Shown here: piece by piece, positions 2 through 17,700 of the stretch
Layout of the letters: the number at the start of each line of letters is the position of its first letter
Numbering within the stretch: position 1 is the stretch's first letter
Virus record (IMG/VR): IMGVR_UViG_3300006734_000051
Location: 1 to 20,723 of that record
Source of the DNA: a virus
Strand: one strand, 5' to 3'
Length of the DNA stretch: 20,723 nucleotides
Notes under the pieces: generated by a model
Told to the model about the DNA's origin: nothing
The model's database searches: none
Seen by the model: the letters and a program-made list of their open reading frames with translations, nothing else
Made by a program: the position numbers and the translations under genes

Positions 2-64
2 CAACGTGAACGTCAACAGAAGTCATGGGAGAATTGTTGGTTAGATTCTTCCGAGTGTGACTAA
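2..64 (+). CDS. 3' end of an unidentified upstream phage gene (partial)
   Basis: Reading from base 2 gives 20 open codons and then TAA at 62-64. The other two + frames meet stops early (TGA at 7-9; TAG at 42-44). The visible tail is charged at first (Gln/Arg/Glu/Lys) and then holds two Cys and two Trp in a WENCWLDSSECD ending. I do not recognise the family from so little. In related phages other baseplate or hub genes lie upstream of gp25, so a structural protein is plausible but this is inference from position only. The stop codon is embedded in a late-promoter-like octamer and is followed within 6 bases by a terminator hairpin, which fits the end of a transcription unit. Confidence 0.55.
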   Translation, partial: QRERQQKSWENCWLDSSECD

Positions 65-67
65 ATA
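60..67 (+). promoter_or_regulatory. T4-type late promoter motif ACTAAATA upstream of gp25
   Basis: ACTAAATA differs from the T4 late consensus TATAAATA at the first two positions and is identical to the octamer at 11740-11747. It contains the TAA stop (62-64) of the upstream gene. If the T4 geometry holds (octamer at about -13 to -6), transcription would start near base 73, giving a leader of about 19 nt with AAAGG (76-80) as a weak ribosome site for ATG 92. The motif is seen; use as a promoter is inferred from its recurrence before four other genes here. Confidence 0.6.
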
Positions 68-69
68 CA

Positions 70-90
70 GGGGCTAAAGGCCCCTTTTTT
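70..90 (+). terminator. Rho-independent terminator between the upstream gene and gp25
   Basis: A GGGGC arm (70-74) pairs with GCCCC (80-84) around the loop TAAAG, and six T follow directly (85-90). The gp25 ATG begins two bases after the last T. A perfect GC stem plus U-tract is textbook for intrinsic termination of transcripts coming from the left. The predicted start of the gp25 late transcript (~73) lies inside the left arm, so that transcript could not form the full stem. Confidence 0.85.
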
Positions 91-91
91 A

Positions 92-496
92 ATGGCAATT
101 CAACTCCGAAGAAAAGAAAAGACTTTTATTGACATCAGTATTGGATTTGAACCCAATCCTTTGACTAAAGATCTTCCTCTAGTTTTAGATCAGAGGGCAA
201 TTGAGACATCAATGAGAAATTTAGTCCTCACCAGACCCGGCGAGGTTCCCTTTGACAGGGATATTGGGTCAAATGTTTACCAATTACTCTTTGATATGAA
301 TGATCCTGCCACAGAGGAGTTGATAGAGGTAGAAGTCCGAAGGACGATTGAATTCAGTGAACCACGGGTTGAGGTAAGAAATGTGAAGGCAGAGGGTAGG
401 CCAGAAGAGTATGCTTTTTTGCTGACAATTGACTATAATATCATTGGCAGAGATGAGGTTATTACTGTTCAACAGATCTTAAGACCTACCAGATAA
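92..496 (+). CDS. gp25: Baseplate wedge subunit gp25 (GPW/gp25 family)
   Basis: A 134-residue protein matching the length of T4 gp25 (132 residues) and of the GPW/gp25 family. Hallmarks: NPLT near the N-terminus, the LTRPGEVPF block at residues 46-54 followed by D-x-G-S-N-V-Y-Q-L-L-F, and the family EPR motif at residues 90-92 (SEPRVEV). In contractile tails gp25 sits in the inner baseplate wedge with gp6 and gp53 and helps nucleate sheath assembly; this role is known for the family, not shown here. ATG 92 is the only plausible start because no start codon lies between the upstream TAA (62-64) and it. It directly follows the terminator's T-tract, with no strong Shine-Dalgarno; the nearest is AAAGG at 76-80. 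gp6 follows after 34 bases. Old annotations of this family as a lysozyme are not supported by catalytic residues here. Confidence 0.97.
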   Translation: MAIQLRRKEKTFIDISIGFEPNPLTKDLPLVLDQRAIETSMRNLVLTRPGEVPFDRDIGSNVYQLLFDMNDPATEELIEVEVRRTIEFSEPRVEVRNVKAEGRPEEYAFLLTIDYNIIGRDEVITVQQILRPTR

Positions 497-499
497 CTC

Positions 500-507
500 T
501 ATAAATA
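500..507 (+). promoter_or_regulatory. Consensus T4-type late promoter TATAAATA upstream of gp6
   Basis: A perfect TATAAATA octamer lies three bases after the gp25 stop and 23 bases before the gp6 TTG. With T4 late spacing the transcript would start near 513, leaving an 18-nt leader that carries GGTAGGA (521-527). This is the strongest promoter match in the window. Confidence 0.8.
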
Positions 508-530: not shown

Positions 531-2465
531 TTGGCAGGAGCCATTCAATTAACTGAGGTCGATTTTGACCAAATTAAATCCAATTTAATAGATTACTTAA
601 AATCAACACGTCAGTTCACTGATTATGATTTTGAGGGGTCTAATTTATCTGTAATTTTGAACCTGATCGCGTATCAGGCTCAACTTAACGCATATTCCAC
701 GAATATGATCGCCAATGAGTCATTTTTGGCGAGTGCTAGCATTCGTGATAATGTAGTTGCTAACGCTAGATCAATTGGATACGTTCCAGCATCTGCTAAA
801 TCTGCATTTTCAGAGGTAGATTTTACTTTTCAGTTGGATCGTGAAAGATTTCCTAGTGGATTTCCACAGTTTTTAACCATTAATCCCGGATTATGTTTCT
901 CTACAGGGGGCGGAAGGAGGAATTTTGTCTTTAATATCATTGATCCTGAGACATCTGCAGTCTCAAATGATGGAGAGTGTCGATTTTTAAGAGTTAAAGT
1001 TCATGAAGGGGTGTTGCTAAATGCATCATTTCTTGTTGATGAGAGTAATTTTAATCAAAGATTCGTAATTCGTAACAAAAATGTCGATACTACTACTATT
1101 AGAGTAGAGGTCCAGGAGAATCCACAACAAGATGAAGTTAAATTTTACGCTCAAGCTAATAATTTAACCACGATTGGACAAGAATCGAGGGTTTATTGGC
1201 TAGAGGAAGTTGATGAGTCTTTCTATGAACTCACCTTCGGTGATGGTTTCTTTGGTAAAAAGCTACAAAATGGGGCTAAAATCTTAGTATCTTACATTGT
1301 AACCAACGGACCCATAGCAAATGGTATTCACGGCGAAACAAATTACGCATTTATTGGACAATTGTTTGATACTTCCGGTAATTCTATCTCTGGAGTTCGA
1401 CCAAACATCTTATCCGCAAGTGTTACAGAGGGTGGAGCCGACATTGAGAGCACATCTTCCATCAAATTCAGAGCCCCTAGGGAGTATGCAGCTCAAAATC
1501 GCACTGTTACAACTGAAGATTATGAAATCTTAGTCCGTAAGATCTATCCGGCAATTGAGGATGTGTATGTAATAGGTGGTGAGAACATGCCTATCCCACA
1601 ATTTGGTAGGATTTTTGTTGTAATCAAACCCAAAACTGGTAACTCCCTATCACAAATTGCCAAAAATTTCATCAAAAAGTCATTAGACCCATTTAGAGTC
1701 GCCTCTCTCGACATTCAATTCCTAGATCCAGACATTTTGAATGTGGAAGTTGTTTCTGCTGTCTATTTTGACGAGAAAAGAACAATAAAAGATCAGTCAG
1801 CAATCATTGCTTCGGTCAGAAGGACTCTTGAAAGGTATGTTGACTCCCAAGCAGTGCCTCGTTTTGGTGGTGCTATACGGTATTCTAAGATAGTTGGAGC
1901 TATTGATGATAGTGATGAGTCAATTACAAGAAACAACACGTTCCTGAGACTCAGAAAGGACGTTGTAGCGATCAGAAACACCTCTGCCACCTATGAAATC
2001 TGTTTTGAAGAACAAATTAAGGTCAATTCCGAGGAGGAAGAGCTTACATCAGACCTGCAATCAGTGGTTTACTCCTCTGGATTCGAAGTTGAGGTTGAAG
2101 GAGTTCCAGATCCTAGGATTTTCTTCTTTGAGGATGACCCTAAAACCCGAAAATTCATTAGAAATAAAAATAACGAGATCACTCACATCTTAGCCAAAAT
2201 TCGCAGCTTCTTTTTTGATCGTGATAACAACAAAATCATCGATGATAAGGAATTTGGAGAAATTGACTACTTCTCTGGGGAGGTTCGTATCGGATATTCA
2301 CGACCGGTAACTATTGTTAATACAGTATTACCGAGAAATATCATAGAAGTTCGTGCTATACCTAGAGATTCCGATATTATAGCTAAAAATATAACATTTT
2401 TAGAACTTGATGTTTCTAAATCCGACATTGTAGCCATCATCGATACAGAAATTTCAGGATCATGA
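531..2465 (+). CDS. gp6: Baseplate wedge subunit gp6 (baseplate J-like)
   Basis: A 644-residue protein, close to T4 gp6 (660 residues). The N-terminal ~90 residues (DFDQIKSNLIDYL, then LIAYQAQLNAY, then ASIRDNV, then a GYVP segment) are the typical start of phage gp6 proteins. A conserved FGDG-F-G-K-K-L-Q-N-G block is at residues 236-246, and the AP-x-x-Y-A-AQNR-V-TTEDYE block with the following GGE...PQFGR...IKP begins near residue 316, as in gp6/baseplate J proteins. In T4, gp6 dimers link neighbouring wedges into the inner ring. The start is TTG at 531, preceded by GGTAGGA only 3 bases away; no in-frame ATG precedes the conserved N-terminus and the next internal Met would delete it. The stop overlaps the next gene's ATG (ATGA, 2462-2465), suggesting coupled translation. 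Residues 563-574 resemble an EF-hand loop (D-x-D-x-N...E). Confidence 0.95.
   Translation: MAGAIQLTEVDFDQIKSNLIDYLKSTRQFTDYDFEGSNLSVILNLIAYQAQLNAYSTNMIANESFLASASIRDNVVANARSIGYVPASAKSAFSEVDFTFQLDRERFPSGFPQFLTINPGLCFSTGGGRRNFVFNIIDPETSAVSNDGECRFLRVKVHEGVLLNASFLVDESNFNQRFVIRNKNVDTTTIRVEVQENPQQDEVKFYAQANNLTTIGQESRVYWLEEVDESFYELTFGDGFFGKKLQNGAKILVSYIVTNGPIANGIHGETNYAFIGQLFDTSGNSISGVRPNILSASVTEGGADIESTSSIKFRAPREYAAQNRTVTTEDYEILVRKIYPAIEDVYVIGGENMPIPQFGRIFVVIKPKTGNSLSQIAKNFIKKSLDPFRVASLDIQFLDPDILNVEVVSAVYFDEKRTIKDQSAIIASVRRTLERYVDSQAVPRFGGAIRYSKIVGAIDDSDESITRNNTFLRLRKDVVAIRNTSATYEICFEEQIKVNSEEEELTSDLQSVVYSSGFEVEVEGVPDPRIFFFEDDPKTRKFIRNKNNEITHILAKIRSFFFDRDNNKIIDDKEFGEIDYFSGEVRIGYSRPVTIVNTVLPRNIIEVRAIPRDSDIIAKNITFLELDVSKSDIVAIIDTEISGS
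2462..2465 (+). other. ATGA stop/start overlap joining gp6 to the 2520-residue gene
   Basis: ATG (2462-2464) of the next gene overlaps the gp6 stop TGA (2463-2465). An AGGA (2456-2459) lies only two bases before the ATG. No late-promoter octamer sits before this start, unlike most of the other junctions here, so the downstream gene probably relies on gp6 mRNA and on translational coupling. Confidence 0.7.
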
Positions 2466-5400
2466 CAGATCAAGTATTAGACCAAAGCACCGATTACAGA
2501 CAGGAGATTGCCGGACCTTCTGATCTTGTCAATCAACTTATCCCGTCATGGATTTGGGAAAGATTTACACTGGTCAAAGATGGGATGGTTGTCCCGACTG
2601 GACCATCATCTCGATTCCCAAACTTTATTGCTCGATCCGATGAAAGTGAGCAAAGATTAGGTTTTGGTCAAGATATTTTACAGAATCTTTTAAAGTATAG
2701 AAACTTTGATACTTATAAGAATAAACTAGTACAATATAACTACTTAGCCGTTAATGGTGGTGTCGGTGAAGGTGGATTACTCTTTGCTCCAGTAGATACT
2801 GAGGATGGCCAGAATATATTGGCAGCAAGTCCTCAAGGTGATGCCCAGGCGGTTATGTCTGGTAACCTTGTCAATAAGAAGTTAAGTTCATTGTCCTTCG
2901 ATAATGATGAAGTTATCGAGTTGATGGATGGCACTGGGTTTCCAGAGCGTAATGGAGTCATATTGATAGATGATGAGGTTATTCTCTATCGTTATCGAAT
3001 AGGTAATTTCCTTTATGACCTTCAGAGAGGTGCATCAGGAACAACTGTCTTACCTACTTTCCGTACCAACGGAACATATCTGTCACAAACAATTCCTGCT
3101 GACCATTTTGCAGGGTCTGTGGTTGTCAATCTATCCAATTTGTTCCTTTTGGCGATGTTGGAGACGATTCATAAATCGTATACTCCAAATATAGAGAGTG
3201 ATAGAGTATGTCCTGAAGTAAACAGGTCATCACTTCTTCAAAACATAAAGGACTTCTTTGCATCTAAGGGTTCCAAGCTTGGAATCAAGGCATTATTTAA
3301 GATGTTGTTCTGTGAGAACGATGTTGAGGTATTCTATCCTGGAGATAGGATGATAACTCCGTCCAAATCGACTTGGTCGGAACAAATGATTCTTAGGAGT
3401 GTTCCAATTCCCGAGTTATTCACTGATCCGAACGAAAATTATATACTCCCAGACAAAACAATTGGATCTGAACTTGTTCTTAAGTCATATCTTAATGATA
3501 AGGATATCTTTGCTAAAACTGTTGTTGATTACGCATCAAATTATCCATATGAAAGTGAAGATCAGTTTGAGATGTATCTCAACGAGAGTTTATTCGAAGG
3601 GGAGATCATTGCCAATCCTAGAACTAAACTGACAAGAATTTTAAAGAATCCAGTAGTGTCTGTTACTGATGAAATTGACACTTTTATCGTAACGGTAGAG
3701 ACAACACTTGGATTCCCAGATAAAGGTGTAATATTCATAGACAATGAGGCGATATGGTATACAGAAAAATCACTCAATCAGTTTTTAAATTGTAAAAGAG
3801 GGTTTATAGGTGTTGCTTCGGAACATCTTCCCGGATCATTTGTCTATGGACCATTCTATGTTGAGACATCCACTGTAGATGACAATGGCACCCGATTTGT
3901 AAGTCGTTCTTGGCCACTAGGACTTGTAGAAGATGTTAAAATTGAAGATCCAGGTTTATTGCACACTTTAGATGATGAAATTACCATAAACGGTCCAGGT
4001 AATACAGACCCTAGAGATCCAGTCTTGGGCGTGACTGGTTCTGACAATGTTTTTGACCCAACTTGGAGAGAAAACTTCTCAGATGAGTTGGCAATGACTA
4101 ATGTGGGACTTCCCACTGTGGATAATCCTCTTGGAATCGGTTTTATCAAAGATAGAACACGAGGACCTGATGGTATATACTTTGATCACGACTATACCTT
4201 CGTATCTTCCGGTGGATTTCCAGAATTCGCTATTGGACCCTTCAATAGAAACTCAAATTTAGTTTTACCAGAGAATCGGGTTGGTCCTGGAATTGATCCT
4301 TCTGCCTTTATCGGCATTATACCCAGAAGGGACAATATTAAGGCCAATTTAGTTGGTCGTGAACTTGATGGGAAACCGATTTACGTATTTGACGAAAAAG
4401 GAAACGATCAAATTGGTCTTTTCATTGATGGGGTTCGTGCATTTAGTAATGTATCTAAAAAGAAGATAGTTCAGGGTTCAATTGCTTCATTTAGTATTAT
4501 AAAACCTGGATCTGGTTATAAAAATCCAACAGTTGTTATTACTCCTCCAATAACGACTGCCCAAGTTTCTGTTGATCCAGTAACAGGATCTATTTTAGCA
4601 GTTACTCCCACTTCAACAGGAAATTATCCAGATAACCCTAGTGTTAGAATCTCAAGTGGTGAGGGTGCAAGTTTTTCTTTGTTATTTGACAATTTTGGTA
4701 GAATTACTGATGTATCGGTACAAAGTGGAGGTAGATTTTATAAAGATCAACCAATCTTGCAAGTTGTTGATGGTTCTGGAAGGGGAAGAGGTGCTTTAAT
4801 CAATTGTGAGACTGATGGTGATAAAATCATCAGTGCAAGAGTAGTTAGCAGTGGAATAGACTATCATCCCATTGCTACGTTTGTTAGAGCCGTCCCGATT
4901 GGTTCTGGGGCGGAGATTAACGCCACTGTTGAGTTCTATAAGTTTGATCGTTATGCAGAAGTTATTAATGAACGTGATTTTACCTTTGACAGAGGTAATG
5001 GGTTCTTATACGAAGCAAATACTCCAGAGTCGGGAGTTAAAAGGACAACATATGGTTATATTTGTTCCCCGACTCAGTTAAGAAGAGCAACAAATGATGA
5101 TGGATCCAATCACTCACCTATCTTAGGTTTTGCCTTTGACGGTAACCCAATTTACGGACCATATGGATATGAAAATGGCGTCGATGATGCTAATGGTATT
5201 CGTAGGATGGAAAGTGGTTATATTTTAAGACAGGATAGAAGGCAGATAATTCCAAGTGGTGGTGGAAGGAATGTAGGGTCTAATCCTCCATCAATTAGGC
5301 AATTCCCTATGGGAACATTTGTGGAGGATTACCTATTTGCTCCAGATCAAGTTGCAGGCATTGAACTTCCTCCACCAGTAGATGGAGGTCTTATTGAGAC

Positions 5401-8400
5401 TGAAGCAGAACTATTGATTGTTTCAGAATCTGGTCTTGTTTTGGAGACTGATGTTTTTGACCCTTCATTGAATAATAACTTATTAGAGGATTTATTTGAA
5501 GCGCCTTTATTAAACTCAGAGAAATCATTATTTGTCGTTACTGAAAACATTCCCAAGTATCTTGGAGGAATAGGTAATACATTCACCGAGGCCTTATTGA
5601 ATACTAATGATGATAGAGAGGTGATGACGAGTGCCGGAGCAGATGACTTCGAGACTGAACCCATACTAACAAGTGTATTTGATATTAAGGAGTCAGATTT
5701 ACAAAACAATAATGATCAAGATATTGTAACCAGCTCGGGATCAAATGATAAGTTGGTGTTGAATGTTGTTGATTTTGATACCGAAAATCCTACAAAAGAA
5801 CTGAACGATAACAATAACACCACTATTCTAATTGGAACTGGAGGACAGAGTGGTCTCAGGAGCCGTCCAATCTTACTGAATAAACTAGATGACAATGGAA
5901 TATATATTGAAACTGATGTTGAGAGAATTAAATGTGATACAGGAAACCCGGATGACCCTGATCCTATTCCACCTTGGATTCTAGGAGAAAACAATTGTCG
6001 TTTGTGTAATACTCCAGAATATCCCAAGGAACTCTATCCCGATGGGATTCATGCATACTTTATCACCATTGATGAAGAGGGCGTTCCTGCTTTCCCTTAC
6101 ATCATCGGTAAAACATTCTGTGACAGACCTATATCTCAAGTGGTGAATTTGATTGATAGTGAAGGGGTAGAGGCTATCAATAGGTCTACGATTTATAGTT
6201 CAAACGTTCCTGATGAAACTCCATTGACATTTGATTTCGCACAAGTCGAAAGGTTACGTAATAATTTCTTGACACCAACCAACGATGAAATTGAACTGAA
6301 AATTGCTGATGTATCAACTGGTTCAATCCATAAAGTCATTGTTGATAATGGAGGAAGTATACGTAGGGATGAAGCACCACCTCAAAGTCCAGTAGGAAAC
6401 CTTTTCTTAGTAACTCACGATTCGATTAGAATTATTGCAAGTGTGGGTTTATCAAGTTCTACTAACAACGTAATTATTGTTAGATCAAGGGATGATAGGG
6501 GAATTATTACTGACTACAGATTAACTAACAACAATGATGAAGATATTGTCGTTAGTGAGATAGAAGTAGAGTCGAATCCAATCATCGTTGGTTCTAGGAC
6601 CATAGAGGATGTTAGAGATGGAACAGTAGTAGCAGGTGCAATGGTAGGAGACTTCTGTTACTTTGAAAACAGAGGAACAGGTGGTGGTGGAGCCGAAGCT
6701 AAAGTTATGATGGTCGAAGGTGAACAGGTTGTAAGTTCATCATCAAGTTTGGTTGCCACAAAATTAATATCTCACAGACAAAGACTAGATCTAAGTTTCA
6801 ATAGAAACAGAACCTTTACATTTGTACCAGATACAATAATCACTACATTCAGTGAAATCAACACGACTAGATCAAAGGCAAGAGTGGTATCTTACGACTC
6901 TGATAGAAAGATCCTGATTGTTCAAGTCTTTACAGAAGATTTGATTCAGTATGGAGATAGTTTCTTTGACAACCGAGGGCAAAAGATTACGATGCCTACC
7001 TCCCCAACCACAAGGTCAAGGAGAGGTTCAATTGGTAATAATAGTGCAACATTTAGTTCATTTGTTGAACCAGGATCAAGATTAGATGGTTCTGATTTAC
7101 AACCAGGTGACCTGTGGTGGTCGTTACAGACCGGAAGACTGTATATTTATTATGATGATGGAATTTTAGACGAAGGACAGATCGAAGGAAGCACATCACA
7201 GTGGGTTTGTACACATCCAATTGGTGTCAGACCACTTGGAGCATATGCTAGTGATAAAGAGATCGGAACTACACAACCAACGACAAAACTTGTTTATAAT
7301 GAACCTGGTTTAAATGTAGTAACTATTTCAAACACAGCACCAGATTCCAGACCAGATAAAACTCCTAACGTATTAGGTGACCTTTGGTGGTCTGCACATA
7401 CTGGTGTTATGTACATATGGAATAGTGATGATATCAATCAGTATTTCGATCCTATAAACAATAATATAGAGGGCGGATATACTGCTGAGTGGGTTTGTAC
7501 CGACCCCTCAGGATTAGTTCCATTTGGAGAATACTCGTCAGATAGTCTATATCCTGTTCCATCTACTTCAAGAACTGGTAATGTATATTCATCGACCATC
7601 AGAGTTATTATTTCGGATACTGCACCTACATTCTCTTCTAGTTTAGTTGATGGAACTTGCACCCCAGTTGAACCTGGTAATTTATGGTGGTCACCAGTTA
7701 CTGGTAAGATGTATATCTGGTTTGAGGATTCAACCAGTAAACAATGGGTTGTAACTAATCCACACGGAACTATCTCAGGTCAGTATTCATTTGATGGACT
7801 CGTTGGATCTGGTGGAGGAAGTGGTGGTCCCGATGATGATACCGCATATGCACCTATTGCACGTCTTCCAGAACTTTCTACACAAGAAAGGTTGTTCTTC
7901 GTAAACACCAATAATTTCTTACCACAGGATCAGATTGAGTTCCAGATGGGAGCACCTGGATTTGATAAACGGAATGAAAAGTCAAAGGTCAGACAAGTTA
8001 ATGACTTTGATTCTGCAATGATTGTGACTCGTGCGTTCGAGGATGAGACTGGTGCAATAGATCTACCTGATGGTACGATCACCGCAAATACAACAAGAGC
8101 ACTTTATACTGTTAATACCGAAACTCCTCACAAATTAAAAGTTGGAGACCTTGTCGAGTTTCGTAATTCTAAATTTGAAAAGGTCAACGGAATTCATGAG
8201 GTTGTAGAGGCTGGTTTTGTAAATCTTGCCAAGGGATATGTGAGAGTTAACTCAGATGGTGGTATATACGATGTGGTAATTACAGATCCCGGTAGATACT
8301 ATACAGAGGATTTTTATATTACATTCTCTGGAGGACATGGAAATGGTGGACTAGCTATAGCCCATGTTGATCCCCTTACGGGTCAAATAGTAGATGTCGA

Positions 8401-10024
8401 GATAATAAGTTCAGGTCAAGGTTATGAGATAGAAGATATACTGAAAAGGGAGTTCCTCGAAGACGACATATTTGTAGATACGGAGGAGCCTAGGTTCTCA
8501 AGATTCGTTGAGGATGAAAGAGGTAATTTTATATTATTAGAACAAAACAAGGTCGAGGTATTTACTCCAAAAACAGGTTCTGGTCCTCAGGCCAACTTCG
8601 GTAACGAATTAGCAAATACGAGATTCTCAATCTACCTTGATGAGTTTTATGTCAAGAGCCAAGGTCAACAAGAATTTGACGAGAATTTAGAGTACTCTAC
8701 TAATTCTTTCAATGCTATCAATAAAGTCAATAGGATAAGAGTTACTTCTCCTGGTATTGGATATCAAGAAATTCCCGAGATCATTGGTCTATATCATCGT
8801 GAGATTGATAGAGGAGAGTTCAAGATTAATCTTGATGGAGGTAAAATTGAGTCAATAGATGTTATCAACGGCGGTTCCAGGTATGTAAATCCGATAGCGG
8901 TAATTATTGACCGCACAAATAACGGTAAGTGTGCTACCGCCCAGGTTTATGTCCAGTGCGGAATGGTTGTAGGAATTAAGATATTGAATGGTGGTGAGGA
9001 TTATGTTGATCCAATTGTGCTCATCATAGAACCTAGTGGAACATATATTCCTACCACCAAAGATATCGGTAAAATTGAATCTATCAAAATAATCAAACCA
9101 GGTAGAGCAATATCCGCAGATAGGTCACTTAAGCCAGAGATTCTGATAGAAACTAGAGCGGTTCTTGACTTTGTCGATCAGAGTGTAGATTCCTTCTCTG
9201 AAGGTCAAATAGTATATCAAGGAACCAATGAAGTTAGACAAGCTGTTGGTAAAGTGAAGTCTTATGATCCCGGTAATCAAATCATAACATTGGTTGATCT
9301 GGAGGGTTATTTAAATGAAGGGGAGATGTTATATAATAATTTTGGAACCATGGCAATTGTCGCCGTAAATGGTCAATCTGATACAAGGATTGAAGTGAGT
9401 GGTACATCTGTTCCCGAAGGTCGATTCATAGACCAGACATCGATATTGAGTGACCCCTTCCCCGTAATTCAGGATTCATTCAGGTTCCAGTTATTCTCTT
9501 ATGTAATATCTTCACCGATACAACAGATTGTTTATGACAACTTCGTAGAGAAGATAACACATCCAACTGGATTCATTCGATTTGCTGATGTTACTATTCA
9601 TGATAGTTCAAAATCTACATTTAATACAGAGGAAGCTGAAGTCACCAGATTCAGAATAATCACACCACCTGAGTTTGATTGTTTTGTTGATGGAGATGGT
9701 GGTTTTGCTGATAGTGTTTCTAACTACTACTCCAATGGTGGTAAGGCAGACACAATCTTCTTTGAATGCTTACTAGACGGAGGAAATTCAGGTAATCTTC
9801 CAGATATCGATCTTGATGTTAAATGTTTAATCGATGGAGATGGTGGGTTCTCCGATAGTGATCCAAATTACTTCTCTGATGGAGGATTTGCAAATAGTGA
9901 TCCTATTTGCTTTGAAGATATGGGTAATGCAGGTGAAGTCTTTGACAACAATGTATACTTAGAAACAGAGTCCAGATTCTCACAATATGTTGGAGACGAG
10001 TTAGGTAATTACATCATATTATAA
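2462..10024 (+). CDS. Giant multidomain baseplate/virion protein in the gp7 position, with YHYH-like domain
   Basis: A 2520-residue protein between gp6 and gp8, where T4 has gp7 (1032 residues), so a wedge role is inferred from position. Modules in order: a conserved N-terminus (IPSWIWERF at ~30); an IDDE module at 159-200, repeated at 417-460; between them SKG...ALFKMLF...YPGD at 268-295, typical of phage virion proteins; four G-x-x-Y turn repeats at 683-801; a YHYH-like first half (NHSPILGFAFDGNPIYG, from 883) ending GTFVEDY at 951-957; an insertion at ~963-1176; the YHYH-like second half (CRLCNTPEYP...HAYF...PYIIG, 1179-1216); three LWWS repeats (1549, 1639, 1739); a Gly/Ser linker at 1782-1790; a second turn-repeat cluster at 1944-2180; and a duplicated Cys/Asp repeat at 2404-2500. 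It ends with a short repeat (2498-2520) also found at 2004-2027. No signal peptide or membrane segment is apparent. Single intact frame. Structural role is likely; the exact T4 counterpart is uncertain. Confidence 0.85.
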   Translation: MTDQVLDQSTDYRQEIAGPSDLVNQLIPSWIWERFTLVKDGMVVPTGPSSRFPNFIARSDESEQRLGFGQDILQNLLKYRNFDTYKNKLVQYNYLAVNGGVGEGGLLFAPVDTEDGQNILAASPQGDAQAVMSGNLVNKKLSSLSFDNDEVIELMDGTGFPERNGVILIDDEVILYRYRIGNFLYDLQRGASGTTVLPTFRTNGTYLSQTIPADHFAGSVVVNLSNLFLLAMLETIHKSYTPNIESDRVCPEVNRSSLLQNIKDFFASKGSKLGIKALFKMLFCENDVEVFYPGDRMITPSKSTWSEQMILRSVPIPELFTDPNENYILPDKTIGSELVLKSYLNDKDIFAKTVVDYASNYPYESEDQFEMYLNESLFEGEIIANPRTKLTRILKNPVVSVTDEIDTFIVTVETTLGFPDKGVIFIDNEAIWYTEKSLNQFLNCKRGFIGVASEHLPGSFVYGPFYVETSTVDDNGTRFVSRSWPLGLVEDVKIEDPGLLHTLDDEITINGPGNTDPRDPVLGVTGSDNVFDPTWRENFSDELAMTNVGLPTVDNPLGIGFIKDRTRGPDGIYFDHDYTFVSSGGFPEFAIGPFNRNSNLVLPENRVGPGIDPSAFIGIIPRRDNIKANLVGRELDGKPIYVFDEKGNDQIGLFIDGVRAFSNVSKKKIVQGSIASFSIIKPGSGYKNPTVVITPPITTAQVSVDPVTGSILAVTPTSTGNYPDNPSVRISSGEGASFSLLFDNFGRITDVSVQSGGRFYKDQPILQVVDGSGRGRGALINCETDGDKIISARVVSSGIDYHPIATFVRAVPIGSGAEINATVEFYKFDRYAEVINERDFTFDRGNGFLYEANTPESGVKRTTYGYICSPTQLRRATNDDGSNHSPILGFAFDGNPIYGPYGYENGVDDANGIRRMESGYILRQDRRQIIPSGGGRNVGSNPPSIRQFPMGTFVEDYLFAPDQVAGIELPPPVDGGLIETEAELLIVSESGLVLETDVFDPSLNNNLLEDLFEAPLLNSEKSLFVVTENIPKYLGGIGNTFTEALLNTNDDREVMTSAGADDFETEPILTSVFDIKESDLQNNNDQDIVTSSGSNDKLVLNVVDFDTENPTKELNDNNNTTILIGTGGQSGLRSRPILLNKLDDNGIYIETDVERIKCDTGNPDDPDPIPPWILGENNCRLCNTPEYPKELYPDGIHAYFITIDEEGVPAFPYIIGKTFCDRPISQVVNLIDSEGVEAINRSTIYSSNVPDETPLTFDFAQVERLRNNFLTPTNDEIELKIADVSTGSIHKVIVDNGGSIRRDEAPPQSPVGNLFLVTHDSIRIIASVGLSSSTNNVIIVRSRDDRGIITDYRLTNNNDEDIVVSEIEVESNPIIVGSRTIEDVRDGTVVAGAMVGDFCYFENRGTGGGGAEAKVMMVEGEQVVSSSSSLVATKLISHRQRLDLSFNRNRTFTFVPDTIITTFSEINTTRSKARVVSYDSDRKILIVQVFTEDLIQYGDSFFDNRGQKITMPTSPTTRSRRGSIGNNSATFSSFVEPGSRLDGSDLQPGDLWWSLQTGRLYIYYDDGILDEGQIEGSTSQWVCTHPIGVRPLGAYASDKEIGTTQPTTKLVYNEPGLNVVTISNTAPDSRPDKTPNVLGDLWWSAHTGVMYIWNSDDINQYFDPINNNIEGGYTAEWVCTDPSGLVPFGEYSSDSLYPVPSTSRTGNVYSSTIRVIISDTAPTFSSSLVDGTCTPVEPGNLWWSPVTGKMYIWFEDSTSKQWVVTNPHGTISGQYSFDGLVGSGGGSGGPDDDTAYAPIARLPELSTQERLFFVNTNNFLPQDQIEFQMGAPGFDKRNEKSKVRQVNDFDSAMIVTRAFEDETGAIDLPDGTITANTTRALYTVNTETPHKLKVGDLVEFRNSKFEKVNGIHEVVEAGFVNLAKGYVRVNSDGGIYDVVITDPGRYYTEDFYITFSGGHGNGGLAIAHVDPLTGQIVDVEIISSGQGYEIEDILKREFLEDDIFVDTEEPRFSRFVEDERGNFILLEQNKVEVFTPKTGSGPQANFGNELANTRFSIYLDEFYVKSQGQQEFDENLEYSTNSFNAINKVNRIRVTSPGIGYQEIPEIIGLYHREIDRGEFKINLDGGKIESIDVINGGSRYVNPIAVIIDRTNNGKCATAQVYVQCGMVVGIKILNGGEDYVDPIVLIIEPSGTYIPTTKDIGKIESIKIIKPGRAISADRSLKPEILIETRAVLDFVDQSVDSFSEGQIVYQGTNEVRQAVGKVKSYDPGNQIITLVDLEGYLNEGEMLYNNFGTMAIVAVNGQSDTRIEVSGTSVPEGRFIDQTSILSDPFPVIQDSFRFQLFSYVISSPIQQIVYDNFVEKITHPTGFIRFADVTIHDSSKSTFNTEEAEVTRFRIITPPEFDCFVDGDGGFADSVSNYYSNGGKADTIFFECLLDGGNSGNLPDIDLDVKCLIDGDGGFSDSDPNYFSDGGFANSDPICFEDMGNAGEVFDNNVYLETESRFSQYVGDELGNYIIL
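2936..3830 (+). repeat. Two copies of an IDDE-type module (TGFP-x-x-GVI-IDDE-I-Y...RG)
   Basis: Residues 159-195 (GFPERNGVILIDDEVILY, then LQRGASG) and 417-455 (GFPDKGVIFIDNEAIWY, then CKRGFIG) of the 2520-residue protein share the pattern GFP-x(1-2)-GV-I-x-I-D-[DN]-E-x-I-x-Y followed ~10 residues later by an RG turn. The pattern is familiar from phage baseplate proteins as a small beta-rich module. The SKG...YPGD block lies between the copies. Confidence 0.65.
4478..4870 (+). repeat. G-x-G-Y turn-repeat cluster 1 in the 2520-residue protein
   Basis: Four successive turns of the form [PSG]-G-x-x-Y near residues 683 (PGSGYKNP), 720 (TGNYPDNP), 756 (SGGRFYKDQP) and 798 (SGIDYHP) are spaced 36-42 residues apart. 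Each is followed by a short beta-rich segment with hydrophobic residues at alternating positions. Such arrays are common in large marine myovirus virion proteins and suggest a repetitive beta fold; the fold is inferred. Confidence 0.65.
5348..5989 (+). other. ~213-residue insertion splitting the YHYH-like domain
   Basis: The domain's first half ends at GTFVEDY (residues 951-957) and its second half resumes at NCRLCNTPEYP (from 1178). In the phage YHYH proteins I recall, these two blocks are separated by only a short loop. The intervening residues ~963-1176 are rich in Asp, Asn, Glu, Leu and Ser and hold loose internal repeats such as LNTNDDREVMTSAG, LQNNNDQDIVTSSG and LNDNNNTTILIGTGG. The insertion stays in frame and ends next to a Pro-rich DDPDPIPPW stretch. 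Confidence 0.55.
7049..7795 (+). repeat. Three tandem LWWS/TG-x-x-YIW repeats
   Basis: Three units share G-[DN]-LWWS-x-x-TG-[RVK]-[LM]-YI-[YW], then [QE]-W-V-x-T-x-P-x-G, then G-x-Y-[AS]-[SF]-D. The LWWS blocks begin at residues 1549, 1639 and 1739 (bases 7106, 7376, 7676). Units 2 and 3 are also preceded by S-[ND]-TAP. The units have diverged in DNA while keeping the aromatic core, so the duplication is old and the protein pattern appears selected. GDLW...LY-Y patterns occur in phage fibre and baseplate proteins. A Gly/Ser linker follows at 7805-7831. Confidence 0.75.
8270..9110 (+). repeat. G-x-G-Y turn-repeat cluster 2 in the 2520-residue protein
   Basis: Turns occur near residues 1944 (PGRYYTED), 1985 (SGQGYEIED), 2098 (PGIGYQEIP), 2137 (NGGSRYVNP) and 2177 (NGGEDYVDP). 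The ~110-residue gap between the second and third holds one copy of the RFS...GN-[FY]-I repeat. Spacing of ~40 residues inside each subset matches cluster 1. Confidence 0.6.
8471..8542 (+). repeat. Internal copy of the RFS-[RQ]-[FY]-V...GN-[FY]-I-[IL]-L repeat
   Basis: Residues 2004-2027 read T-E-E-P-RFSRFV-E-DE-R-GNFILLE. The extreme C-terminus of the same protein (bases 9953-10021) carries T-E-S-RFSQYV-G-DE-L-GNYIIL and then stops. Both are followed or ended at the same hydrophobic ILL/IIL step. Confidence 0.6.
9671..9964 (+). repeat. Duplicated Cys/Asp-rich repeat (C-x-x-DGDGGF-x-DS) near the C-terminus
   Basis: Two units 48 residues apart start at Cys2407 and Cys2455. Each has the form C-x-x-DGDGGF-[AS]-DS-x-x-NY-[YF]-S-x-GG-x-A, then a second Cys (2436 and 2483) followed by x-x-D-x-GN-[SA]-G. 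The DGDGG loops resemble calcium-binding loops, and the paired Cys could form disulfides or be buried; both are inferences. Confidence 0.7.
9953..10021 (+). repeat. C-terminal copy of the RFS...GN-Y-I-I-L repeat
   Basis: The last 23 residues of the 2520-residue protein repeat the motif at bases 8471-8542. The stop codon (10022-10024) falls just where the internal copy continues with Glu-Gln, so the protein ends exactly at a repeat boundary. Confidence 0.6.
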
Positions 10025-11766: not shown

Positions 11767-14700
11767 ATGCCAATTTCGACCAATACTAATGTAAGACCTT
11801 ATTTTGATGATTTCGATCCAAATAAGAACTTTTATAGAGTCATGTATAAGCCTGGATTCCCCATCCAGGCCAGAGAATTAACCACGACTCAAAGTATCTT
11901 ACAGGATCAGATTGAGAAGTTAGCTGGTGTTTTTCTAAAAGAAGGGGATACTGTAGTTCCTGGTGATTTTACTGTCAGCATACCTGCCTCTTATGTGAGA
12001 TTGGCATCTCTTACTCAAGGTGCAACTGCAAATAGTTTTGTTGGGTTCACACTTACAGGTGTGACTTCGGGTGTCAAAGCGTTTGTAAACTTTGCCACTG
12101 AAAAGACAGAAGATGATGATCCGACTCTTTATGTAAATTACGAAAATGATGGTAGCAATTCGGAAACTGCCACTTTCTTGGAAGGAGAAACCCTAGAGTC
12201 AAATACTCCTGATGCCTTTACTGCAACAGTAGGTGTCAATGAAACTAGTAAGCCAATTACTACTCCTCCTATTGGTGTGGGTAGTATCTTTACAGTCAAT
12301 GAGGGATCATACTTCGTTGACGGATTTATAGTTAGAAATGATGAACAAACTATTGCTCTTGATAAGTACGGAGTTTCTCCTACATCTAAGGTCGGGTTTG
12401 TTGTCACTGAAGAATTTGTTGACTCTGTAGACGATAAATCTCTACTCGATAATGCACAGGGATCTTCCAATTTTGCTGCTCCAGGTGCAGATCGATTGAA
12501 GATTAGTCTTACTCTCGTAAAAAGAGACCCCGATGCAATTGACCCTAACTTTATCACTCTGACCAATTTAGTTGAGGGAAATGTTGTAGGTAGTTCTACA
12601 CAAACAGTTAAGTGGGACTTCCTTTACGATCTACTAGCAAAAAGAACATTTGATGAGGCCGGTGACTATATTGTCAGCGATTTTCCAATACAACCTTTAG
12701 AGTACTGGGATTTCCTAGATACTGATAATCCTTCTAACGTAGAAGTAATTAATTTAAACCCAGATGGGGTATTTGACCCAGATGAGAATGGTTTTTATCC
12801 ACCTGTTCCCGGAACTGGATCTACACAACCCCTCACCTTTTCTGAAGCCAATGCAAAATATTCAATAAGGGTTTCTCCTGGAAAGGCATATATTCAAGGA
12901 TATGAAGTAAGTTTCACCAGTCCTTTCTTTATCTATGGTGACAAACCTCGTGTTCAGGGGTTCGTTCCTAAGTCATCAACTCAAGTTCCAAACGGTTATA
13001 ACATCCCAATCTCTCGTTTATCTGGAATCCCTGATTTAGATAATATCACTGGACCTGGTACTAAAACTCAAGCATTTAAAGATATTGTGTGTTACCGTGA
13101 GTTTGGTGATGGTTTCTCTGGAGAATCATCAAACCCCGAAAGATTAGGAAGGCCTATCAGTGGCGGAAACCAACCACTTACGACATATCATCTTATTTTA
13201 GAGAAAATATCGTCTGACTCTCAAAGGTTACCGTTTGATGATAATAATATTGTAGATGGAATACCAACGAACACAGTAAATCCCGGAGAGGAAGGGGAAT
13301 TTGAAGTTCAAAGAATAACCCCCTTGAGGTTGGATGAAAGTACCTCAGAAACAAATAGTGTTGTTGTTTCCATACCATCCGGTAAAACCATCAAAAGAGG
13401 TGACACTTTTGAGAATAAAAAGGTATTAATATCAAGAAAAATTACACCCTCTCCTACTGGTATAATCAGACCAAAGTATATTTTCAATACAGACCTTGTA
13501 GAGATGGGGGATTTTTATGGTTACAATTCCGTATCTAGACTAGGAATATTGGGGTCGGAGTTTTTCACGGAGTTTTACATTGTATTTGATGAAAACGACT
13601 CAGGGAGAGATCGTAATTGGTTAGTTGGAAACCTTGTATTTGGAGAAGAGAGCAATGCAATTGGTCAAGTGGAGGAGGGATCTCAGGGAAATAGATTGAT
13701 TCTTTCGTCAATCGTGGGACAATTTAGAAATGGAGAAAACATCAGACAGTTGTTTTCTGGATTAGACTCGACAAATGTTTTATTGGAAAGAGAGGGACCT
13801 GGTATCTCAAGTCAAACATTGGTAGAAACAAAGACCAATGCGGATATATTATTAGATTTAAATATCAAAAATGACAATGATGACTTTGTGGTAAAAAGTG
13901 GTAGGATCATTAGAAAAGGAGAGGTTGTAGGGTTAGAATTTGATACCAAATATGAAGCAAAATACGATCCTAACAACCCGGACAGTATACCTAGACCAGC
14001 TAATATAACTTCATCTATTGATACCAGTGAAATCAGATTATTCAAGACCTTAGCAAATACTGTTGAATCATCAAATTTTAGAATCAGTCTTCCATCACTA
14101 GAAGACCTAAGGACTCAGGAAAGTTACAATGAGTGGATTTATAGAGTTCTTGAAGAAATTGACTCTACAATGTTATCTAATATTGATGGAGGTGAAGCAA
14201 AACCATCATATGATACATCTGATCCAATACTTGTTCCAGTGACAAAATCACAACCCACCAAGGGTGATTTTGATTTAGGTTCAGAGAACTATATCACTGT
14301 ATTTGCTTTAGGTGCTAGAGTTGTTTTATTCAAGGAGGGATCAGATGGAATAGATCCTGGTAAGGGTGGATTTGTCTATAAAAAGAAAACAAATTCACTT
14401 GAATTGACTAAATTCGGTAGAGATTTCTTATATAATTTTCCATATTCAAATCCTCAAAACACAAGAGAGGTTCCCCGTGTAAACTACACTATTATCACTG
14501 AAAACGGTATTTCCGGTTATGCAGTAGTAATTCCTGCTAAAATTACTAATACTATCACAAAAACAAAGTCATTATTCTCGGAATTAAGTGATGTCCCGAA
14601 CTTCACTGCGGATGTCTCATTTGCAACATCTAATGATGTAAATACACTGACTCTTGCTGACGGGTCATTATTTTCTGGAAGAAAGGGTGATAATTTTATC

Positions 14701-17700
14701 GTATGTGATGATTTTCTTGGAGATGCTTCAGACCAATTGGTCGGCGGTGATATAGTAGTAATAACGGATGATAGTGAATCAACCCAACAATTAGTTGTTT
14801 TGTTTGCTACACAACCATTTGGTTATGGACCTAGTAGAACTCCTGGATATATTTACTTCACTACTACACTAAACAAGAAAATTACTGGAAAGAGAGTTGA
14901 GAGAATTCGTGTAAAACCATTGGGTAAGCCCTCTGATAATCTTATTCTTCAACTTCCCGAAAATGTAATCTCCTCCCTCGAATCAGACCCACAAAATACT
15001 GGAATCAATTACCAGGTATATAAACAGTTTGTCACGGATGAACTTAATGCAGGAGAGACAGAAGTTCGTATTACAACCAATAAACCGAACGAAAAATTCA
15101 TAATTGATCAATTTAAATATACAATATCTATTGCTAAAGTTACAAATAGGAAAGAGAAAAACATCTCATCCTTCGAGGGAAGATTAATATCATTGAGTTT
15201 AAACAACCCAATCAGCATATTAAGTCAAGGAACTGAGGTTACACTAACTTTTAGATCACCATTACCTGTTGGATCTGTATTGAAGATTATAGCTCCAATC
15301 CAAGTAACTAATGCCCAGGCAAAGAGAAAGAATCTCATCAGAGACTATCAACAATCATTCCCATTTGATCCTGAAAATCCTAGAGACCTGGAGTTGAGCC
15401 CATTATCTTCCCAAGCTGCAGCATTTGAGAAAGCTGATATCTTTAGACTGAAGTCTCTGATGATGACCGACGGAGATGGTAAACAAATTGACATTAAGGA
15501 TAACTACATTTTTGATAATGGACAAAGAGATGGTTTTTATGGATTAGGTCAGTTGCTACTCAAGCCAGGTAGACCTAGACCTGTTGGCAATGTGATAGCA
15601 ACATATGATTACTTTGAACATGAGGGTTCTGGTGATTTCTTCAGTGTTGATTCTTATTTACATGATAGAGGGGTCCCCTATGGACTCATACCAGTTTACA
15701 GACCAATCTCAGACACACCAGAGGGAAATATTGATCTTTCGGATGTGACACTTAAGTTGAGGGATAGTATTGACTTTAGACCAATAGTCAATGTTGCTCC
15801 TCCCAATCCTTCCTTCTTATCGACAAACATTCCGTTTGAATCAGTATTAAATTCTTATAATTTCCTTGATACAAGAAATGGCGGAAATGCATTTGTTCCC
15901 CGCATTCCAATTCCTAATTCACAATTTGAATGTGATATTCAATTCTACCTACCCAAGATTGATTCACTCTTCTTAGAAAAGACCGGTAAGATGACTCTGG
16001 TTGAGGGTATACCCTCTAAAAATCCTGTCGCTCCTCCTGATTTGTCAACAGGTATTCGCATTTATGATTTATTCCTTCCTGCATATACTTTCAATATCAA
16101 AGATGTAAGGATCGAAAAATTCAATTACAGAAGATACACTATGAAGGATATCTCTGAAATTGATAGTAGATTAGATAGAGTTGAGGATTTGATTACATTA
16201 TCAATCTTAGAGATCAGTGCACTCAATCAAAGTGTTAGAGATGCAAAGACAGGGCTTGATAGATTTAAGAACGGAATTATTGTTGATACCTTTGCTGATC
16301 ACTCCAAAGGTAATGTTGGAACTAAAGTTTATAGAAATAGTATTGATTTCAAACAGAGTCACTTAAGACCCGCCCATGTTTGGGATCAAGTTGCTCTAGA
16401 AGAGACTAATCAAACTGATGAAAACAGAGAGATCTTTGGATTCTATGTTAATAACAATGGTATCGTGACATCTCCATTTGATAATAAGGTGTTGATCTCT
16501 CAACCAAAGGCAACGAGGTCCATAAAAATTCAACCTTACACTAACTTTGCCTTTGAGGGTAAAGTAAAATTGACACCATCAATTGACACTTATTTTGACA
16601 ACCGTAAAATTCCTGATGTGGTGATCGGTGACAGTAAGATTTGGGCGGCAATGGTTAATATCCCTGCTGACATGGTAATTATGTCATTAGGAACCGTTTG
16701 GGGATCTTGGGAAAATCAAGGAAGAGTTATGGTAAATAAGAAGCTTGAGTTTGGAAGGGAGAATCAATTCAGAGAAAATAGAGTCAATGATTTAAATGAG
16801 AGTCCATTTTTATACTCAAATGGACTTTCTGTAGGAGAAAGTAGTTTAACAATTGGAAGTGCCGCATTATCTTTAAACGAAGCAAGAGGTATTATCAAGA
16901 GACAGTTCCCAGTTAATACGGGTGAACCTATTAACACTTCAAATGGAGAAAGATCTGTAGATACTCAGATTCTCCCAACAATGAGAACGATTCCTGTTTA
17001 TATAAATGCAGAGAGATTAAAACCAAATACGAGATACTTCGCCTTCTTTGATGAAGTCAATGTAAGTAAGTGGGTCTCTGTTGATAATATAGAACCAGAA
17101 GTCAACTTCCCAGATGGTGTTGCTAGATATTCTGGTGTGCCCAATTCAAATCCTAAAGGATTTGGAGCTCCGTTAATTACAGATGGTGAAGGTAATTTAC
17201 AAGGTGTATTCTTAATACCTAATGGAAGACCACCTGTGAAGGGATCTATATTCAATGGATCGTTAAATGATGTGGAGTATAGAGTCAATGGTCCTACAAG
17301 ATCATTCAAAACTGGACAGAGATATTTCAGACTTACATCCAATAGAAAGAACTCTACTGATCTATCTAAGATTGAAGGGTTTGCAGAGTCTGTCTTTGTA
17401 TCTGGATCTGTTGTTAATGACAAGTCTGAATATATTTTGGCAACAAGGTCTAAAGACTTCACCACTCAGACTAGAATTAACGAACAACAGTCCAATACGG
17501 ATAATGAACTCGATTCTATAGATGTATCCGATCGTCCTCCATTCCAAAAACCATCATTAAGACCAAGACCCCGTGACCCCATTGCACAAACATTCAACAT
17601 TGATTCAAATAGTCCAGATGGTGTTTTTGTCAGTCAGTTAGATGTTTTCTTCAAAAAGAAAGATTTGATTCAAGGTATTGAAGCATACATTGTCTCTACA

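Follow-up and report, generated by a model that had tools for sequence, protein, structure and literature searches.

A predicted interlock of late promoter and intrinsic terminator before baseplate gene 25 of T4-like viruses of cyanobacteria

Anatomy of the region upstream of gene 25

The window analysed here is a 20,723-base IMG/VR virus record with the T4-like baseplate genes 25, 6 and 8; two very long open reading frames (ORFs) in its wedge cluster, at 2462-10024 and 11767-20442, encode 2520 and 2891 amino acids. Upstream of gene 25 a late promoter octamer is followed by a hairpin and a run of T (Table 1). The TAA within ACTAAATA lies in frame with a short upstream ORF, which is complete (52 amino acids; L009 4025-4183) in the near-identical contig L009, a sequence that matches the window at 1847 of 1859 bases (99.4%) and extends 4.1 kb further upstream. 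A sequence-only reading of this DNA had described an octamer at 60-67 containing the upstream TAA, a T6 run and the gene 25 ATG at 92, all of which are present, and a hairpin at 70-90; the GC hairpin and its T6 are there as described, with the stem beginning one base earlier, as A69 pairs with T85.

The stem comprises 7 bp, five of them G-C pairs, with one G-T pair at the apex. In its 7-bp GC-rich stem, 3-nt loop and T6 it resembles intrinsic (Rho-independent) terminators, with five or more T directly after the stem. ACTAAATA is a TATAAATA-like octamer and precedes a late gene; among 208 late-leader octamers from five near genomes, 58% are of the C variant that it represents. In a terminator scan the gene 25 hairpin was the most GC-rich terminator-like site of the window, which holds 18 such sites, mildly above shuffled sequence (mean 11.4, sd 3.4). 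Near-matches to TATAAATA in the window were at chance level (44 found, 42 expected). The composite of octamer, hairpin and T-tract occurred once, and any such composite arose in only 5 of 1000 dinucleotide shuffles, so that the combination is noteworthy for its rarity although its separate parts are near chance in the window.

Table 1 Features at the gene 25 upstream region of the window
Feature	Position	Strand	Remarks
3' end of upstream ORF	2..64	+	5'-open in window; stop TAA 62-64 within octamer
T4-type late promoter octamer, variant ACTAAATA	60..67	+	
Stem left arm	69..75	+	A69-T75
Predicted late transcription start	73	+	Last A of octamer + 6; T4 rule and purine peak
Loop AAA	76..78	+	
Stem right arm	79..85	+	G79-T85
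T6 tract, U-tract of predicted intrinsic terminator	85..90	+	
Gene 25, baseplate wedge subunit	92..496	+	phrog_261, E 8e-41; ATG 92-94
TATAAATA before gene 6, comparison late octamer without hairpin	500..507	+	

Conservation and spacing of octamer and hairpin

A homology search with a gp25 alignment yielded 15 IMG/VR loci with 12 distinct upstream sequences, and octamer, hairpin and T-tract preceded gene 25 in every one of them (15/15 loci, 12/12 distinct upstreams). The five nearest named phages, MA01, S-CREM2, S-B68, S-N03 and S-CRM01, carry the same cassette, which is found in a group of viruses of cyanobacteria. By the same criterion it did not occur before gene 25 in eight distant phages (S-SM2, P-TIM68, Syn33, S-SCSM1, ACG-2014d, S-SSM7, Aeh1 and T4), nor in any of 28 distinct upstream sequences from Syn33-like marine phages of the open-ocean clade (80 loci, two dropped for short flank), ten of which keep the octamer. 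A weak AT-rich inverted repeat lies upstream of gene 25 in S-SCSM1. Weak AT-rich inverted repeats also stand directly after the octamer, without a U-tract, in several Syn33-like upstream sequences (L287, L301 and similar ones); these are possibly remnants or translational versions of the element.

Sixteen gene 25 cassettes, one of them (L182) taken from a pattern scan of IMG/VR, were compared. Among them 15 different left arms were found, with pairing nonetheless kept; when right arms were swapped between sequences, pairing fell to 73%, relative to own-arm pairing that is complete by construction (pairing by script). In 13 of the 16 the last A of the octamer is also the first base of the stem; the window's stem begins 2 nt further on, and those of L021 and L022 begin 2 nt before that A. 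The expectation that the spacing from octamer to hairpin would be fixed in relatives is thereby borne out among the near ones.

Spacing was then scanned across 11 phage genomes and four contigs containing 855 occurrences of [AC]TAAATA, without demanding a T-tract. A stem of 6 bp or more began at the last A of the octamer in 21 of the 855, against an average of 3.9 for each position from +13 to +40; when a T-tract was also required, the figures were 17 and 1.3 per position over the same range. The control motif [GT]TAAATA (n = 599) gave three stems at its last A, and none with a T-tract. In T4 this geometric scan picked out two late octamers and no others. They precede ORFs beginning MLLTGKLYKEEK and MNIFEMLRIDERL, which we take to be gene 49 (endonuclease VII) and gene e (lysozyme), respectively. 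Within a genome the arrangement is rare, since among 220 [AC]TAAATA octamers with an ATG-initiated ORF 9-46 nt downstream in five near-relative genomes, only nine late promoters have the hairpin. A strict pattern demanding CCC-N-TTTT matched 2 of 20 records and missed known cassettes, and was given up in favour of hairpin scans. In the sites selected from IMG/VR by pattern, it is the pattern itself that sets the spacing and makes the left arm G-rich, and these sites hence carry no evidence on spacing.

Predicted late start, termination and translation

In T4 the late octamer occupies positions -13 to -6 (PMC1524935). Among the late leaders of five near relatives, 208 distinct sequences in all, a purine stands six bases past the last A of the octamer in 95%, compared with 63% and 74% at the neighbouring positions, and the same purine peak was observed in marine phages (81%) and in T4 (80%). 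Placed by this spacing, the window's start is predicted at G73; 15 of the 16 gene 25 cassettes have a G at the predicted start, from which 0-3 pairs of the stem are left. This agrees with the suggestion that late RNA would begin near position 73, with most of the left arm already passed. The predicted folding energy of the window sequence is -11.7 kcal/mol in full and -0.4 kcal/mol from the predicted start, and over the 16 cassettes the values range from -10.0 to -15.9 kcal/mol for the full sequence and from 0 to -3.5 kcal/mol for the predicted late RNA. Since the start predicted by T4 spacing lies at the end of the left arm, late RNA should be unable to refold the stem.

The segment expected to melt at the late promoter (-5 to -1) reads CAGGG in the window, with a G+C fraction of 0.8, and lacks the AT-richness that is typical, though not required, of late promoters. 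Its mean G+C is 0.77 in 88 cassettes, which were partly selected by a G-rich pattern, and 0.30 in the 220 late promoters. A review describes an AT preponderance in the melting segment of T4 late promoters (PMC2988020); set against this, the GC-rich segment suggests that the late promoter may be weak.

These features suggest the following sequence of events. A polymerase arriving from upstream would transcribe both arms, whereupon the stem would form and the RNA would be released at the U-tract, immediately short of the start codon of gene 25. A polymerase starting at the late octamer would begin at about G73, without most of the left arm; its RNA could not form the stem, and transcription would continue into gene 25. 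The element would pass RNA according to its point of origin, and we infer a role in timing, by which early and read-through transcription would be kept out of the late baseplate genes. On the sequence features at hand, we regard the gene 25 element as probably an interlocked late promoter and intrinsic terminator.

A published precedent exists for this self-sparing geometry, which the sequence-only reading had proposed and which the loss of folding energy in predicted late RNA also favours. In T4 genes e, soc, 49 and I-TevI, as reported in PMC3014915 and PMC2988022, hairpins form only on RNA started upstream, because the start of late RNA lies inside the 5' arm or beyond it. These genes, and also segB and Aeh1 mobE, have their late promoter in a position that leaves the 5' arm out of late RNA. 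The gene 25 cassette is like them in that the octamer abuts the left arm, in that the late start is predicted inside that arm or past it, and in that read-through RNA should fold and late RNA should not. It differs in that the T4 elements block translation by hiding the ribosome-binding site or the AUG, whereas gene 25 here has a GC-rich stem with a U-tract after it and no conserved ribosome-binding site in its right arm. From ordinary intrinsic terminators it differs in its placement, which should exempt the transcripts of one promoter.

Two further systems bear comparison. In the transposase genes of IS10 and IS50, RNA entering from outside folds back and is silenced, and one arm is missing from RNA started at the inner promoter; this protection, in contrast to the cassette, is translational and belongs to transposons. 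The translation-initiation hairpin of T-even gene 25 is likewise an RNA stem just before gene 25, but it lies between the ribosome-binding site and the AUG and aids translation; it is described in PMC3014915 as absent from distant non-coliform relatives. A limited literature search found no published description of a cassette of the terminator type, and we do not claim that none is in print. The element is real and selected, and it is probably a terminator variant of the known T4 arrangement.

Of the alternatives, the one with most in its favour is a lock on translation of the type of T4 genes e and 49, in which the hairpin would hide the ribosome-binding region in read-through RNA, late RNA would be translated for want of the left arm, and termination would be minor or absent. 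Its mechanism is published for T4, the geometry of octamer and stem is that of genes 49 and e as recovered by our scan, and G79-G80 of the window's AAAGG are paired. However, the right arms at gene 25 are pyrimidine-rich in all cassettes but L020, no ribosome-binding site is conserved across the 16 gene 25 late leaders, and the AUG of gene 25 lies outside the stem. The proposal that AAAGG (76-80) is freed in late RNA likewise falls away as a general feature, this motif being particular to the window sequence. The U-tract, moreover, is strongly tied to the hairpin, in support of the terminator reading: seven of nine hairpin-bearing leaders in the five near genomes, and one of 211 leaders without a hairpin, have a T5 run close to the start codon, the two groups being alike in length (medians 26 and 23). 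An arm without a conserved ribosome-binding site, followed by a U-tract, makes transcriptional stopping likelier than a translational lock. With the late promoter set against the 5' arm, and neither ribosome-binding site nor AUG sequestered in the helix, gene 25 is not filed with the T4 locks and is alike to them in geometry only; we consider a purely translational reading unlikely.

Rather improbable, in our judgement, is ordinary compaction, in which the terminator of the upstream unit and the next late promoter overlap without being coupled and late RNA may start elsewhere. Signals are tightly packed in these genomes, stop codons inside the octamer are common at ordinary late promoters of this lineage, and the order of terminator followed by octamer is the commoner one; yet overlap of this kind accords poorly with a sharp peak at one spacing that recurs at unrelated genes and in T4. 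Very improbable is a reading in which the hairpin serves to stabilise or process the 3' end of the upstream mRNA and the U-run acts as a leader that enhances translation, for even though the U-run stands directly before the start codon, and other aids to initiation are plausible because only 52 of the 211 hairpinless late leaders hold a ribosome-binding-site-like sequence, just one of those 211 leaders has a U-run. In the window 4 nt separate the stop codon from the stem; a ribosome terminating just before a stem could cover the left arm and weaken termination.

Upstream context and recurrence at the resolvase and other late genes

The element had been proposed as a compact insulator between late units. 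Contig L009 contains an exact sigma-70 promoter, TTGACA-17-TATAAT, at L009:3134-3162, which is 1049 nt upstream of gene 25. Five small ORFs come after this promoter, and after them the cassette, which is the only strong plus-strand terminator-like site between this promoter and gene 25. Because of this upstream promoter, an early/late boundary fits L009 better than one between late units. The relatives are mixed: one-mismatch promoters were found upstream of gene 25 in L017, L020 and S-CRM01 and two-mismatch promoters in MA01 and S-N03, while none with up to two mismatches was found within 3.5 kb of gene 25 in S-CREM2, S-B68 and L014. An early promoter before gene 25 was accordingly rejected as a general feature.

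The spacer of the L009 sigma-70 promoter contains CTAAATA, and its sequence would make this a possible dual early/late promoter. The reverse order, a terminator with a late octamer just past its U-tract, is also seen in these genomes; a terminator-like hairpin and T-run at L009:2265-2310 is followed at once by TATAAATA, and such arrangements number seven in MA01, 11 in S-CREM2, six in S-B68, nine in S-N03 and four in S-CRM01. Some terminators (6 of 40 in S-B68, 3 of 44 in MA01 and 3 of 40 in S-CREM2) have TTGA or TTGC in the hairpin and an extended -10 element (TGnYATAnT) after the U-tract, and look as if the -35 element of an early promoter might sit in the hairpin.

Cassettes are not confined to gene 25. 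Among the 80 loci listed from at least 120 matching stretches, the IMG/VR pattern scan gave at least 76 distinct sites, 75 of them with a good stem, and many of these matches stand before different late-looking genes. PHROG matches downstream of cassettes include the terminase large subunit in S-N03 and the major head protein and a tail-fibre protein in Syn33. A related cassette also precedes the gene for a RusA-like Holliday junction resolvase (phrog_244, PHROG match), a functional counterpart of T4 gene 49 that belongs to a family other than gp49. This gene was present in seven of 17 records searched and directly preceded by the cassette in four: in S-PM2, S-CREM2 and S-B68 the order is nrdA-nrdB, the cassette-resolvase unit and lysis genes, and in S-N03 small ORFs and a tail-fibre-like gene come first, then the cassette-resolvase unit and an endolysin gene. 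No GC-rich cassette was found directly before the resolvase gene in MA01 and S-CRM01 (HTVC008M was left out). In MA01 a cassette with the stem-loop of the S-N03 resolvase cassette lies at 84420 (L045:4420), 0.68 kb upstream of the resolvase gene (85096), as if something had been inserted between the two. In S-CRM01 the region before the resolvase gene at 91839 contains, by eye, an octamer and an AT-rich palindrome directly before the ATG, without a U-tract, and is closer to the T4 form.

Among 105 distinct IMG/VR resolvase upstream sequences, 48 had no octamer, many of them appearing to come from other phage types, 19 had an octamer without a hairpin by the criterion used here, and 38 had a hairpin (36 with a T-tract). 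The right arm resembles a ribosome-binding site (e.g. GGAGGT) in 24 of the 57 distinct octamer-bearing upstream sequences, so that in these 24 the sequestration that defines the T4 locks is found. Such right arms occur alongside the T-tract, and the resolvase element therefore combines a T4-like lock with a U-tract.

Terminators that are made conditional on the origin of the RNA by a start inside their own stem may, we suggest tentatively, be a widespread device of T4-like cyanophages, a transcriptional counterpart of the translational locks of T4 that would operate at gene 25 and at terminase, head and tail genes and, in combined form, at the resolvase. If so, about 30 bases would separate early from late expression without any protein and without antiterminators, and the element could serve as a reusable insulator in synthetic circuits. 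In T4-like cyanophages the same functions would then be guarded as by the hairpins of T4, namely the resolvase and also lysis, whose genes here lie downstream of the resolvase gene; the guard would stand at a resolvase of another family, and this recurrence would suggest selection against early expression of resolvase and lysis genes.
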